Source of the DNA: an uncultured Fretibacterium sp.
GTDB lineage: Bacteria > Synergistota > Synergistia > Synergistales > Aminobacteriaceae
DNA: 36,605 bases
Direction of reading: 5' to 3'
NCBI GenBank assembly: GCA_947168585.1
Contig: CAMVMK010000020.1
Coordinates: forward strand, 1 to 36,605
The notes under the pieces are model-generated. The model searched no databases. It saw only the letters and a list, made by a program, of their open reading frames with translations, and was not told the origin of the DNA. Both the position numbers and the translations under genes were made by a program. This document shows positions 7,862-35,580 of this stretch, piece by piece (the first letter of the stretch is position 1; each line of letters starts with the position of its first letter).

Positions 7862-7874
7862 AATATTTCTTTTT

Positions 7875-7906
7875 CACTCCTAACTCCTCACTCCTAATTC
7901 CTAATT
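7875..7906 (-). repeat. Intergenic heptamer repeat, four units, upstream of livM
   Basis: On the minus strand this reads as GGAATTA, GGAGTGA and GGAGTTA units in tandem, all pointing the same way, in the gap between livH and livM. No opposing arm is present, so it is not a terminator hairpin. It may serve as a purine-rich ribosome-entry region for livM. Confidence 0.7.
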
Positions 7907-8871: not shown

Positions 8872-8960
8872 AAGGAGTGAGAAGTGAGGAATGAGGAGTT
8901 TTTTTATTTCTAATTCCGAATTAGTTTTAACTCCTACTTCCTAACTCCTAACTCCTAATT
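8872..8960. repeat. Inverted pair of heptamer-repeat arms downstream of livJ
   Basis: A purine arm (8872-8899, GGAGTGA-type units) faces a pyrimidine arm (8929-8960, CTCCTAA-type units). On the minus strand the arms pair over about 28 positions with a handful of mismatches, forming a long hairpin just after the livJ stop. With the next hairpin it makes two potential 3' structures for the livJ message. Confidence 0.75.
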
Positions 8961-10138: not shown

Positions 10139-10151
10139 TCACATATTTTAC

Positions 10152-10209
10152 TTGAGAAAAAATAGATTTAATGTCGGGGTATCGCTTATAATGGCATGTG
10201 AAAAATAAA
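10152..10209 (+). repeat. 58-bp perfect direct repeat, left copy
   Basis: This is identical, base for base, to 10942-10999, which is the last 19 codons plus the stop of the methyltransferase gene lying between the copies. Similarity continues weakly on both sides (GAAAAATTTTAT before; ATGCAAAA and an AGGAG site after). In frame it still reads LRKNRFNVGVSLIMACEK and stop, so it is a displaced gene end. It contains TATAAT at 10187-10192 and may also promote the downstream gene. Confidence 0.95.
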
Positions 10210-10246
10210 TTCATGCAAAACTTAGGAGGCTCGAAAAAAATTAGTC

Positions 10247-10998
10247 ATGGAAAAAATTATGTATGAAGAACTACGGCAGCAGCAAAATAAACACTGGTGG
10301 TTCAGGGGCAAACGAGAAATTATTATCGACTACGCTGAACATCAAGCGGCTTTCAAAAAAGACCCGCAAAATAAAATTCTTGACGTAGGGTGCGGAATGG
10401 GCTTTTTGCTCAGCGAGTTAGCGCATTGGGGCGAAGTTTACGGCATGGATCTTGCGCCTGAAGCCGTGAATTACTGCCGTTCTCTTTTCGATTCAAAGGG
10501 GGGGGGGTAAAAATTTCTGTAGGTTCGCTTCCTGACAGCGTTCCTTACGAAAATAATTTTTTCGATTTTATTTTTGCCGCAGACGTTATCGAACACGTTG
10601 AAAACGACATAGAAGCCCTAAAAACTCTCCGAAATTTATTAAAAACTAACGGAAAATTAATTATCACTGTCCCGGCTTTAATGAGCCTCTGGAGTCATCA
10701 CGATGAATTAAATCATCATTTCAGGCGCTACGAAGAAAAAGAACTTTTAGAAAAAGTCGACAAGTCCGGACTAAAAATCATAAATCATTCTTTTTTTAAC
10801 ACGCTGTTTTATCCTGTTACTAAAATTATCAGGATTTTCAAAAATAAATTTCACGATAATAAAACCGATCTCGATACCAGCTCTGTTACTCCTTTCTTAA
10901 ACGCAATTTTAGCGAAAATTTTTGCGTCGGAAAAATTTTATTTGAGAAAAAATAGATTTAATGTCGGGGTATCGCTTATAATGGCATGTGAAAAATAA
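10247..10998 (+). CDS. Class I SAM-dependent methyltransferase, interrupted at a G10 tract (likely phase-variable, OFF here)
   Basis: The start of the protein is MEKIMYEELRQQQNKHWWFRG, then the SAM-binding motif ILDVGCGMGFLLSEL (about residues 44-58) and EVYGMDLAPEAV. With ten G the frame hits TAA straight after SKGGG, at residue 87. With eleven (or eight) G it continues as VKISVGSLPDSV, FDFIFAADVIEHV (a typical motif of Methyltransf_11-type enzymes), LIITVPALMSLWSHHDE and on to CEK. That would be about 250 residues. The HWWF N-terminus resembles methyltransferases found with surface glycan or lipid genes; the acceptor is unknown. The gene sits between perfect 58-bp direct repeats. AGGAGG lies 17 bases before the ATG, which is far; no better start is seen. 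A sequencing error in the G run is the main alternative. Confidence 0.85.
10498..10507 (+). repeat. Poly-G tract (G10) inside the methyltransferase gene
   Basis: Ten consecutive G in an AT-rich gene, with a full reading frame restored by adding one or removing two. Mononucleotide G tracts of this length are classical slipped-strand switches, for example in Campylobacter and Neisseria surface genes. It is the longest G or C run I noticed in the window. Confidence 0.95.
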
Positions 10999-10999
10999 A
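10942..10999 (+). repeat. 58-bp perfect direct repeat, right copy
   Basis: This copy forms the 3' end of the methyltransferase gene and the sequence leading to the next gene. Both copies are followed, at a short distance, by ATGCAAAA, an AGGAG-type site and a start codon. The TATAAT at 10977-10982 could promote the downstream 72-residue gene. Recombination between the two copies would remove exactly the 790-bp methyltransferase unit. Confidence 0.95.
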
Positions 11000-11262: not shown

Positions 11263-14163
11263 ATGGGCATTAATATATTTGCCTACAATTACGTCTCTGA
11301 AATTTCGGGACTTCTTGAAAAAATCAAAAAAGATTTTCCCGGAGATTTTTCAGATTTATCCTGCGTCCGTTATGTCGTTCCGTCTCAAAATGACAAAATT
11401 TGGCAGCCAGATAAAAAAATTTCGAGCGAAGATTTATGGACTTGGGACGAAATTTATAAAGACGTTTGCACTGCCGGACGAGTAACCCGAAAAAGAGTTT
11501 TATCGCCGCCGGATCATTTATTGATTTTAGATTCGATCCTTAAAAGCGTCTTGGCCGAATATCCCGAAAAAGTTCAAGAACTTCCGGGCTTAACACGCGC
11601 GGGATTTTTAAGCATAATTTCACGGGACATACGCGAATTATTAAACGAAGCCGTAGAGGCTAAACAGCTTGAATTTAATCCCGAGAGCAATAACGCTTCG
11701 GAGTTTCTTTTGCCGCGTGTTTATGAAAAATATCTTGAGTATCTCAACAATTATAATTTGCTCGACAGCGCGGAAATTTATTCTGAAGCCCTTGAAGAAA
11801 TTAAAAAAAATCAATCTTGGGGACGCGAGTTTGTTTTAGTCTTCGTGGGATTTTTATCGTTCACCGGAGCACAGCATCAATTAGTCTCAGCACTTCAAGA
11901 CCGGTGTAAAAATGTTTTTATTTTGAAGCCTGAAACAAATTTATACGGTTTTCACGATGTTCATTATCAAATTTATAAAAAATATTCCGCGCCGTTAAAA
12001 TCTGTCGGACAAATTGAAGAACTTTGCGTTGCCGAACCCGGTTTAGAGCCGGAAGTTATAGCAAGAAAATTAGCTTTATCATCAGAAAAAAATTTTGACG
12101 ATATAGGCATCATGATTGAACGCGGAAGAGAAGCGGCCTTTGCTGAAGCCTTTGAACGTTACGGAGTTCCTTATGATTTTTCTTCGGGGATAAGAATAAA
12201 TTTAACTTTGCCCGGAAAAATTTTAAGCGCAGTCCGTCATCTTAATTCGCGCGGTTTTCCTGCTTACGAAACTGCAATGTTATTAACTCAGCCGTGTTTC
12301 GCAGGAAATAAATTCCCCGTAATGAGGGCTTATAAGGCAGGCTGTACAGGTCTTGACAGCTGGCAGGACTTTTTAACTTCAATGATTGAAAACGGCGGTG
12401 AAGAAATTTTCAAAACTGCTTTACTCGCTATAAAATCTATAAAAATTTTTCGCGATGTCATGGCTAAAGACTCGAAGCCTGAAAAAATTATGTCGGCTTT
12501 TTATGAATTTTTGACAACTGAAAATTTATGGCTCGATAGATTTTCTTCAAAAGATATTGCCGCTCTTCCTGAACTTGACGACACTATAAGAAATACAGCC
12601 AGCGCAATCGAAACTATAGGCACAAAAGTTTTGGCTCTTAATGAATTACTGCCGGACTTGGGAATAGTTCAAAACGATAAATTAAAAAATGATGAAGCTT
12701 ATGACTTCTTAGAACGCTGGTGCGCTAACACTGATACACGGCCGCCCGTGCAGATTTCTAACGCCGTGAGAATTTTTACGGGAACTCCGCCGGTCTTGTC
12801 AAAATTTCCTGTCTGGATAATGACGGGAGTAACTCAAAAAACTTGGTCGGCAAAAATAAATTCTTCCCCTCTGCTCGGCGAAGCTGAACGCGAAAAATTA
12901 AAGGCTCTTCCTAACGCTAAGGCTAAGGCGGATCAACATGAAGCTTTATTCAGGCGTTTAATTCAGGTCGGTGAACAGCGCACGATAATTTCACGTCCTG
13001 TTCTTGACGAAGAAGGCCGCCCGCTTTCTGAATCTCCGTTTTTTGAAAAATTCCGCGAAAACATGAAAGACACTTGGAAAATTATTCCGAGCGAACCTGA
13101 CAGCATAAAAATTTTGTTAGGCTCTGACGGTTTTATATTTGATGACATAGACCCGGCGGAAAAAATTTCGCGCAAACCTCCCGTAATTTTCAAAAAAGTT
13201 AATTTCGTAGGAGCAAGCGATATTCATAAATTATTAAGCTGTCCGTTCTTATGGTGGCAGGAAAAAGGAGCAAATTTATATCAGCGCGACACGGATATAA
13301 CTTCGCCTGTTGAATGGGGCGTTATGCTTCATAAATTTTGGGAAAGAGTCTGGCGACGTTATAGAACTGATGTTAAACAGATTTTTTATAAAATTGCTCT
13401 CGACGAGTGGAAAATTTTAACGGACTCTCAAGAATTAAACGATGACTATAAAAATTTTTCGCGCCTCGTTAAAGATTTCAGATTAAAACGAAAATTAGAC
13501 GGGATTAAATTCCGCGTTGAACGTTTAGCTAAAATTCAAAATGAAATTTTAGAAAATTTACACGCTGCAGGTTATGTCCATGAAAAAATTTTATTGGAAG
13601 AAGAAGCCTATCTTAACTCAGAAAAAAATAATATAAAATTTTTAGGACAGTGCGACAGAATTGAAATTTTACGCGACCCTAACGGCGGAAAAATTGCTTT
13701 CATTGCTGATTATAAAGAGGGCATCGGCGAACGTTCTGAAAATTCTATGACGAAAATTCAAAATTATGAATGGAACACAGAACAACGCGAAAAATTTGCC
13801 TGCGGTCTTCAGCTTTCAGTTTACGCGGCATTATTTACGGAAAATTACGACACTAAATTATGCGGCGTTTATATTTTAGGGCTCGAAGACGGGAAAATTT
13901 CAGGAAGCATATTAAATTCAGAAGACTATCCGGAAATTTGGGAAATTTTCTCGCAATATAAATCCTCAAAATTCAAACCCTCAATTAAAGATCGTGTCGA
14001 TGAGGGCGAATATGCTATGAGTTGCGCTGCAGAAGTTTTGAACGCGGGAAAATTTGCGCCGGAATATCAATCGGATTCTTGTAAATTTTGCAAGATTAAA
14101 AGTCTTTGCAGAATGGGCGAGTTCAGAGGCGAAATTTTAGAAGACGACAGCAGCGAAGATTAA
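11263..14163 (+). CDS. AddB-like PD-(D/E)XK exonuclease with a 4Fe-4S cluster motif
   Basis: This belongs to the RecB/AddB nuclease superfamily (PDDEXK_1), which resects DNA ends for repair. The first ~550 residues are an AddB-like helicase-fold region without a canonical Walker A, so it is not an active motor by itself. The nuclease domain has His690 (GVMLHKFWERVW), Asp798 (FLGQCDRIEI), Asp816 and Lys818 (IADYKEG). Cys660 (LLSCPFLWW) plus Cys940, Cys943 and Cys949 give the C...CxxCx5C pattern of the AddB iron-sulfur cluster. At 966 residues it is shorter than typical AddB (about 1,160). An addA helicase partner would be expected next, but the following gene is an unrelated convergent one. 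ATG start; no strong AGGAG before it, so coupling to the small upstream gene is likely. Confidence 0.85.
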   Translation: MGINIFAYNYVSEISGLLEKIKKDFPGDFSDLSCVRYVVPSQNDKIWQPDKKISSEDLWTWDEIYKDVCTAGRVTRKRVLSPPDHLLILDSILKSVLAEYPEKVQELPGLTRAGFLSIISRDIRELLNEAVEAKQLEFNPESNNASEFLLPRVYEKYLEYLNNYNLLDSAEIYSEALEEIKKNQSWGREFVLVFVGFLSFTGAQHQLVSALQDRCKNVFILKPETNLYGFHDVHYQIYKKYSAPLKSVGQIEELCVAEPGLEPEVIARKLALSSEKNFDDIGIMIERGREAAFAEAFERYGVPYDFSSGIRINLTLPGKILSAVRHLNSRGFPAYETAMLLTQPCFAGNKFPVMRAYKAGCTGLDSWQDFLTSMIENGGEEIFKTALLAIKSIKIFRDVMAKDSKPEKIMSAFYEFLTTENLWLDRFSSKDIAALPELDDTIRNTASAIETIGTKVLALNELLPDLGIVQNDKLKNDEAYDFLERWCANTDTRPPVQISNAVRIFTGTPPVLSKFPVWIMTGVTQKTWSAKINSSPLLGEAEREKLKALPNAKAKADQHEALFRRLIQVGEQRTIISRPVLDEEGRPLSESPFFEKFRENMKDTWKIIPSEPDSIKILLGSDGFIFDDIDPAEKISRKPPVIFKKVNFVGASDIHKLLSCPFLWWQEKGANLYQRDTDITSPVEWGVMLHKFWERVWRRYRTDVKQIFYKIALDEWKILTDSQELNDDYKNFSRLVKDFRLKRKLDGIKFRVERLAKIQNEILENLHAAGYVHEKILLEEEAYLNSEKNNIKFLGQCDRIEILRDPNGGKIAFIADYKEGIGERSENSMTKIQNYEWNTEQREKFACGLQLSVYAALFTENYDTKLCGVYILGLEDGKISGSILNSEDYPEIWEIFSQYKSSKFKPSIKDRVDEGEYAMSCAAEVLNAGKFAPEYQSDSCKFCKIKSLCRMGEFRGEILEDDSSED

Positions 14164-15509
14164 GCCGGTGAGTTTAACTCCGCTGCTCCTTTTAGAATTT
14201 CTATAATCTCATCATCAAAATTCATAATTGCCCAAGCAAGTGCCGTAACGCCTTTTTTATCAGGAATATTAACATCGGCTCCATGATTAACTAAAATTTT
14301 TATCGTTTCAAGCTGAATTTCTCTGCGCAGAACGTTAAATAAAACTGCAAGAGAATATAAATCCGCGCCCTTTTCTGAACAAATTGCTCCTGTCCTTATC
14401 AAAGATGATATAAAAATCTCCGGGCTTCTGTCCCGGTCGTTCACCGCCCACGTTAAAGGCGTAAAGCCCGATTTATCACGAATATTCGGGTCTGCTCCGT
14501 TTTCTAATAAAATCTCAACAACTCCGTCTTCAACATTGCTGTCAATCACAGCCAAAGTCAAAGGCGTACGCCCGTCCAAGTCGCGAAAATTCGGGTCTGC
14601 TCCGTGAACTAATAAAGAATTAACCATTGAAAGCCCCGTTAAAACAGCGTACATTAAAGGCGTGCGGCCTTTTGAGTCTATGAAGTTCGGGTCAGCTCCG
14701 TTTTGCAGTAAAAGTTCAAGACATTCCGGCGATTCCATTGAGATTGCTACGTTAACATTCGCCGTAAAAATCGGCGGTAAATCTTCATCATCTTCTTCAT
14801 CGTGAGATAAATCTAAAATTTCGTTGACGTTCGCTCCGTTCTCAATAAAAAATTTAATCATTTTCAGAGCTTTTTCACCCGATTTTTGAATATTTAATAT
14901 CGCAAGTGAAAGCGGACTTTGTTTCATAGTGCAGGGCTGATTTACGTCCGCACCGTGATTAATTAAAATCTGAGCTAATTTCAAATCATTAGTTTCTATT
15001 GCCGTCAGCATTGCTTCACGATAATCTGCTCCGGCTAACATTAAAGTTTCTACGATGCTGTAGTCCGGCTCTGCTTCCATATCTAACATAAAAACAGCGT
15101 AAGTTAAAGTATTATAACCGTTTCCGACCCGCATATTAACGTCCGCTCCGAGTTCAACGAGGCATCTTACAAGTTCACCTTTATTAGCAGAAATCGCGCA
15201 TAAAAGCGGCGTTCTGTTCCGGCTGTCTTTGCTGTCAACATTTGCGCCGTAAACGTCAACTAAAAGTTTCAACATTCTAATATCTTCCATAATCATAGCT
15301 GCCATAAACGCGGGAAAATTTTGGGCTTTATGGTTGAGTAAAACTTTTATTGCACCGTAATTTTTTTCCATTACGGCAACGAATAAAGGAGCCACTGTAA
15401 CTCCCTGATATTTTGCACGGCGGTTTACGCTCGCACCGTGTTTTATCGCGTTTTCAATGTCATATTCACTGCCCCGTGCGCAAAGATAAAGAAATTCTCT
15501 TTGATTCAT
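14160..15509 (-). CDS. Ankyrin-repeat protein
   Basis: The whole 449-residue protein is built from about eleven ankyrin repeats. Their hallmark turns recur (GASVN, GANVD, GADVN, GADPN, with GRTPL or GYNTL helices between), from about residue 25 to the end. There is no signal peptide, membrane segment or extra domain, so it should be a cytoplasmic binding scaffold of unknown partner. Some repeats are degenerate or have an acidic insertion (HDEEDDEDLPP near 240). It starts three bases after the tlyA stop and probably shares its transcript. Its stop overlaps the stop of the convergent AddB-like gene by four bases, leaving no room for a terminator. Confidence 0.88.
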   Translation of the reverse strand: MNQREFLYLCARGSEYDIENAIKHGASVNRRAKYQGVTVAPLFVAVMEKNYGAIKVLLNHKAQNFPAFMAAMIMEDIRMLKLLVDVYGANVDSKDSRNRTPLLCAISANKGELVRCLVELGADVNMRVGNGYNTLTYAVFMLDMEAEPDYSIVETLMLAGADYREAMLTAIETNDLKLAQILINHGADVNQPCTMKQSPLSLAILNIQKSGEKALKMIKFFIENGANVNEILDLSHDEEDDEDLPPIFTANVNVAISMESPECLELLLQNGADPNFIDSKGRTPLMYAVLTGLSMVNSLLVHGADPNFRDLDGRTPLTLAVIDSNVEDGVVEILLENGADPNIRDKSGFTPLTWAVNDRDRSPEIFISSLIRTGAICSEKGADLYSLAVLFNVLRREIQLETIKILVNHGADVNIPDKKGVTALAWAIMNFDDEIIEILKGAAELNSPA

Positions 15510-25906: not shown

Positions 25907-25934
25907 CTACTTCCTACTTCCTAACTCCTACTTG
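25907..25934 (-). repeat. Heptamer repeat between rbsA and rbsC
   Basis: Pyrimidine form on the plus strand (CTACTTC, CTACTTC, CTAACTC, CTACTTG); on the minus strand, the coding direction, it reads as purine units just after the rbsA stop. A single arm. Confidence 0.65.
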
Positions 25935-32963: not shown

Positions 32964-33086
32964 AAAACAGTTAGGAGGTGTAAAAAGCAAGTAGGAATTA
33001 GGAATTAGGAAGTAGGAACTGAAAAAGACGTGTAGAAATCTTTTTCTCACTCCTCACCCCCTCACTCCTAACTCCTCACTGTTTTT
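32964..33086. repeat. 120-bp inverted heptamer-repeat element before the TerB_N gene
   Basis: It begins AAAAACAGTTAGGAGG and ends in the near reverse complement CTCCTCACTGTTTTT (15 of 17 positions match). Between them are GGAATTA and GGAAGTA units, an inner stem GAAAAAGA/TCTTTTTC with an 11-base loop, and the opposing CTCACTC and CTAACTC units. The long hairpin could terminate the DUF2156 message. Confidence 0.8.
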
Positions 33087-35003: not shown

Positions 35004-35066
35004 TGAGGTGAGGGGTTAGGGGTGAGGGGTTAGTTTTTTTCGTTCCTACTTCCTAACTCCTAATTA
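35004..35066. repeat. Inverted heptamer repeat between the TerB_N gene and dut
   Basis: The plus strand has GGTGAGGGGTTAGGGG units then seven T, then TTCCTACTTCCTAACTCC. The arms pair over about 18 positions with G-U pairs and two mismatches. It lies between convergent genes and could terminate either. The G-rich variant GGGGTTA is seen only here. Confidence 0.75.
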
Positions 35067-35525: not shown

Positions 35526-35580
35526 GTGAGAAATTAGGAAGTTTTTTCACATCTAACTCCTAACTCCTCACTCCTAACTT
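35526..35580 (-). repeat. Heptamer repeat between pnp and dut
   Basis: On the minus strand GGAGTGA, GGAGTTA and GGAGTTA are followed by a stem TTAGGAGTT/AACTTCCTAA and loop. It falls at the very end of pnp and upstream of dut. Confidence 0.7.

Follow-up and report, generated by a model that had tools for sequence, protein, structure and literature searches.

A poly-G tract that splits a SAM methyltransferase gene is one of about 60 putative phase-variation tracts in a rumen Synergistaceae genome

The window (the whole 36,605-nt, or 36.6-kb, stretch of DNA analyzed here) is contig C20 of a 2.35-Mb MAG that is 94% complete and divided over 110 contigs. This MAG represents a rumen member of the Synergistaceae. 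Where relatives with the neighboring gene have names, they are MAGs assigned to Synergistales/Synergistaceae, and most of them come from the rumen of goats, sheep, and deer. A methyltransferase gene in the window is broken by a run of ten G residues (Table 1). It stands alone, outside any glycan cluster, and is flanked by a branched-chain amino-acid transport cluster to its left and by an AddB/PD-(D/E)XK-type (DNA-repair-type) gene to its right. A scan of the + strand gave no sigma-70-like promoter for this gene above the scan threshold. The gene is bracketed by two copies of a 65-bp direct repeat, the upstream one being left over from the 3' end of that same gene. Given this arrangement, recombination between the copies could delete the methyltransferase, which would provide a second, irreversible route to its loss. 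Elsewhere, the window encodes a 449-aa ankyrin-repeat protein (14160-15509, - strand) and carries short degenerate heptamer arrays of the TAACTCC, CTCACTC, and GGTTAGG type in intergenic positions (7874-7904, 8928-8958, 25907-25933, 33046-33080, 35007-35033, and 35553-35579), of which the array at ~8925-8966 matches many sites in related species.

Table 1. Features in and around the split methyltransferase gene (window coordinates).
Feature	Position	Strand	Basis
65-bp direct repeat copy 1, 5' of methyltransferase gene	10145..10209	+	matches the gene's 3' end; protein residues 144-163
AGGAGG, possible ribosome-binding site, 17 nt 5' of ATG 10247 (wider than usual)	10224..10229	+	sequence only
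Methyltransferase 5' half, 87 aa, SAM motif I DVGCGMG	10247..10510	+	Pfam Methyltransf_31/25/11 N-terminal parts
G10 homopolymer tract	10498..10507	+	read directly; 3 G8 matches vs 0.15 expected
Methyltransferase 3' half, 163 codons, other frame	10507..10998	+	Pfam Methyltransf_23/11 C-terminal parts; shuffles
TA dinucleotide directly 3' of G10	10508..10509	+	common to 57/59 tracts of at least 8 in the genome
65-bp direct repeat copy 2, 98% identical, true 3' end of methyltransferase gene	10935..10999	+	repeat comparison

The tract is the sole G-run of at least five on the + strand of the window, where the longest C-run measures 6, and shuffling predicted 0.15 matches of G8 or longer where three were observed. 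The frame that opens at ATG 10247 comprises 87 codons and is closed by TAA 10508-10510, immediately 3' of the tract. Two bases out of register with it, positions 10507-10998 provide 163 stop-free codons, and a stop-free result never arose in 20,000 base shuffles of this stretch. Apart from the break at the tract, the ~250 codons of the gene contain no further stop or frameshift. An earlier sequence-only reading had put a G10 at exactly this place, with a frame stop at residue 87 and an open downstream frame of 163 codons, and had calculated that one G more or two fewer would restore about 250 residues; all of this was borne out, the arithmetic following from the two-base offset. With the frames read directly, the length of the tract decides whether the gene is open in full or truncated. 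The tract lies inside one gene and is longer than the working threshold of PhasomeIt (G/C of at least 7, PMC6321876).

That reading had also claimed methyltransferase motifs on both sides of the tract, in agreement with the Pfam profiles: Methyltransf_11, 23, and 31 scored above the Pfam cut-off in one or both halves, and the halves divide the same profiles between them, for example Methyltransf_11 (1-39, then 53-95) and Methyltransf_31 (2-51, then 61-126). The hallmarks of class I SAM methyltransferases, SAM-binding motif I (DVGCGMG) and the Rossmann-fold elements that come after it, are distributed over both sides, and the break falls past motif I and ahead of the FDFIFAADVIEH strand. Alignments to the homologues L054 and L055-L057 run through the tract and include both halves, which rules out a chimeric join at the G10 and points to one gene. 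The split locus is thus read as a single class I SAM methyltransferase gene that is out of frame in the assembly. No NCBIfam equivalog for the methyltransferase scored above cut-off, and comparison with the PDB returned weak matches alone, such as 3mgg and WbdD. The only near homologue, in genome G033, is a decayed copy of ~60% identity that is frameshifted and shortened and has GGATGGGGGTAAAAC (G5) at the tract site; most species of the genus do not have the gene. A search of viral contigs yielded no match that would indicate a viral origin and no second allele, and among the relatives no second intact allele of the tract was found.

The genome as a whole contains more such tracts than expected by chance, with 9 runs of exactly G7, 16 of exactly G8, and 44 of at least G9. 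Fifty-nine tracts of at least 8 were read, with lengths of 8 (15 tracts), 9 (30), 10 (6), 11 (7), and 13 (1). Counts thus climb from G7 (9) through G8 (16) to G9 (30), an increase with length that chance growth does not produce. Of the 38 tracts that we classed as coding, 15 keep the reading frame and the remaining 23 disrupt it, an in-frame share compatible with the one third expected by chance (p = 0.49). At least nine non-coding tracts are located inside promoter spacers of the form TTGACA-N6..10-Gn-TAAAAT, with a total spacing of 15-21 nt, which is what phase variation of the promoter type predicts; these intergenic spacer tracts are apparent phase-variable promoters. The intergenic tracts of L021, L034, L037, L038, L046, L084, and L091 sit precisely between TTGACA and TAAAAT. 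Promoter-spacer phase variation is known from Neisseria (porA, opc type), and the likeness concerns the sibling tracts, whereas the methyltransferase tract is coding. Surface-glycan or methyl-transfer genes account for roughly half of the genes with coding tracts (~20/38, counted by Pfam with two close paralogues added on sequence identity). They comprise the split gene itself, three FkbM-type methyltransferases, members of DUF268 and of Methyltransf_11, 12, and 24, glycosyltransferases of GT2, GT11, and GT1, DUF4422 members, glycerophosphotransferases, one acyltransferase, and one MatE/MurJ-like flippase. Long G-tracts are a genus-wide feature, and the number of at least G9 ranges from 2 per genome (in G020, which is 100% complete) to 56 (in G026). 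Other families of the order have few instances of the G9TA form.

Tract lengths at sibling loci differ between species. The flippase L087 has G8 in its own genome, G7 in G007, and G11 in G009 at the same site, which is interrupted in G013 (GGGAGGAG) and G020 (GGGGGGAGG). Similarly, the methyltransferase L088 has G8 here, G10 in both G063 and G008, and GGCGGAG in G024, while L044 (G9 versus G8) and L027 (G9 versus G7) also vary between species. Within the genome itself, paralogue pairs differ as well (G8/G9 and G10/G9). These differences provide comparative support for slippage at the sibling loci. Since relatives that have no tract mostly carry Gly-Gly codons at the tract site, the tracts seem to be born from native glycine codons by purification of these codons, and to grow or shrink later. 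The length data also bear on whether the G10 consensus could simply be a sequencing or assembly error in a gene that is in fact intact and invariable. Homopolymers are error-prone, the MAG is fragmented, and the downstream frame is entirely open, all of which would fit such an error. However, errors alone would leave most coding tracts in frame, which fewer than half of them are; independently assembled species differ in length at the same site; and instability would be expected of a tract of this length anyway. We therefore regard an error as improbable.

The tracts share a sequence context. In the tract loci read from this genome (L001-L052 and L082-L100), with flank statistics based on the stretches extracted around the tracts, TA directly follows 57 of the 59 tracts of at least 8, as compared to 4-9% of short G-runs (G1-G5), and the TA share jumps abruptly between G6 and G8. 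Because the frames downstream of coding tracts occupy all three codon registers (18/13/7), the rule is a feature at the DNA level, and this spread rules out a codon effect (Gly-Val or Gly-Tyr). Background composition is ruled out by the short G-runs, and selection for a nearby stop is unlikely, with TAC and TAT making up about one third of cases and TAG being absent. Promoter function would cover the intergenic minority only. Insertion of G-tracts at TA in the manner of a mobile element was rejected, given Gly-Gly in most relatives and no target duplication seen; some tract sites do resemble a pure G insertion ahead of TA.

In three congeners (G032, G061, and G017), TA follows just about half of the tracts. 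There, a GTAAWT-type motif in relaxed form is found ~17 nt 5' of 27/46, 10/23, and 15/22 tracts, respectively (loci L101-L140, L141-L160, and L161-L180), as compared to 2/59 in the present genome. The motif is partly palindromic ([AC]GTAAWTnTAC-like) and occurs at both coding and intergenic sites in these three genomes. It is not a general genome motif, its strict form occurring just ~4-32 times per genome. In G009 and G014 the upstream flanks are T-rich and the downstream flank is mostly TA; loci of G026 were excluded from the TA comparison because they were drawn from a TA-only list. For Campylobacter tract flanks, 50 kb of phage NCTC12673 contained no tract, and the papers searched print no such flanks. 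The context rule appears to be unreported, no description having been found in a literature of which our coverage is incomplete. We entertain, as a tentative idea that is rather unlikely to hold, that slippage is not merely passive and that a cis context particular to each species governs where tracts are born or become hypermutable, this context being the 3' TA in the present species and the GTAAWT-type element ~17 nt upstream in congeners. If true, mutability would be steered to chosen genes, either by a factor that reads the sequence or by a replication step that depends on context.

Taken together, the ~60 tracts of non-random size, the chance-like in-frame share, and the length differences between orthologues support the view that the tracts act as switches. 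For the set, slipped-strand phase variation is well supported by these comparative data, and we infer the same for the methyltransferase gene from the set. It is thus highly likely that the methyltransferase tract is a contingency locus switched by slipped-strand mispairing and part of a genome-wide repertoire. Mispairing at the G-run during replication would alter tract length. One of three length classes would yield the full-length class I SAM methyltransferase, while in most other length states the product would end after ~87 residues with an incomplete catalytic domain; the assembled G10 consensus would represent the OFF state. The tract would be one of ~60 poly-G elements, in coding regions and promoter spacers, that mainly vary surface-glycan synthesis or modification, and the methyl acceptor would probably be a surface sugar or lipid. 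The gene anatomy, the genome-wide excess of tracts, the interspecies lengths at sibling loci, and the gene classes are direct observations; from them we infer the mechanism (slippage), its reversibility at the methyltransferase gene, and the nature of the substrate. Of the two proposals made from sequence at the outset, the slipped-strand switch gained from the genome-wide tracts, their 15/38 in-frame share, and the orthologue lengths, and it predicts within-population variation at this gene; the surface glycan or lipid target fits the gene classes of the coding tract set and is putative for the methyltransferase itself.

That the gene is a dead pseudogene with an incidental G-run would accord with the frameshifted and shortened homologue in G033 and with the absence of the gene from most species of the genus, but ~250 codons otherwise free of stops and frameshifts, and the place of the tract in a class that spans the genome and shares one context, make this very unlikely. 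Least likely of all is action at the RNA level at a fixed DNA length, with transcriptional slippage or ribosomal frameshifting yielding some full-length protein: homopolymers can provoke polymerase or ribosome slippage and both frames are preserved, but DNA length varies between orthologues and paralogues, and some sibling tracts are non-coding promoter spacers. Several observations count against the switch itself. Both mutS (G000:C32:13126-15660) and mutL (G000:C25:14946-16412) are present, and mismatch repair lowers slippage. Loss of mismatch repair is thereby ruled out as the cause of the tracts, which persist despite these genes; phase-variable species with mismatch repair do exist. This differs from Campylobacter, which to our knowledge is without the MutS/MutL pathway. 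Also against the switch are the location of the methyltransferase gene outside a glycan cluster, the TA rule, which simple slippage does not predict, and the decay of the only near homologue, with G5 at the site.

The poly-G switch is of a type that is already well known. In the Campylobacter phasome, poly-G phase variation has tract lengths that peak at 9-10 (PMC6321876), and the likeness extends to coding poly-G of 7-13 with this peak and tens of loci per genome (PMC6321876, PMC8437040). Methyltransferases and other surface-modifying enzymes are targeted in both, with in-frame and out-of-frame states mixed; phase-variable examples in Campylobacter include the cj1426 capsule heptose methyltransferase, UbiE_3, and other SAM methyltransferases (PMC6321876, PMC8437040). 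In contrast, the host here belongs to the Synergistota and a gut-commensal setting, and its substrate and switching are putative, as read from sequence. The strict TA 3' of the tract is described here for the present genome. Helicobacter canadensis likewise carries poly-G in methyltransferase, glycosyltransferase, and hypothetical genes and in putative promoters, and has tracts close to gene 3' ends (PMC2823697), as do a few loci here (L018, L043, and L051); its length ranges come from read data, whereas those reported here are differences between species and paralogues (PMC2823697). For phase variation in Synergistaceae or Synergistota, the literature, incompletely covered, gave chance co-mentions only.

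With ~60 such runs in its genome, many of them in cell-surface sugar genes, this bacterium very probably employs them for random on/off switching in a Campylobacter-like manner. If the flanking rule is functional, bacterial control over where hypermutable tracts arise becomes testable. According to a 2025 review, large numbers of phase-variable loci per genome seem confined to pathogens, perhaps because of database bias (PMC11868660), and a rumen commensal lineage of another phylum with ~60 tracts bears directly on this question. As the tracts center on glycan and methyl-transfer genes, a large cell-to-cell diversity of surfaces is predicted in the rumen, plausibly directed against phages or the host.
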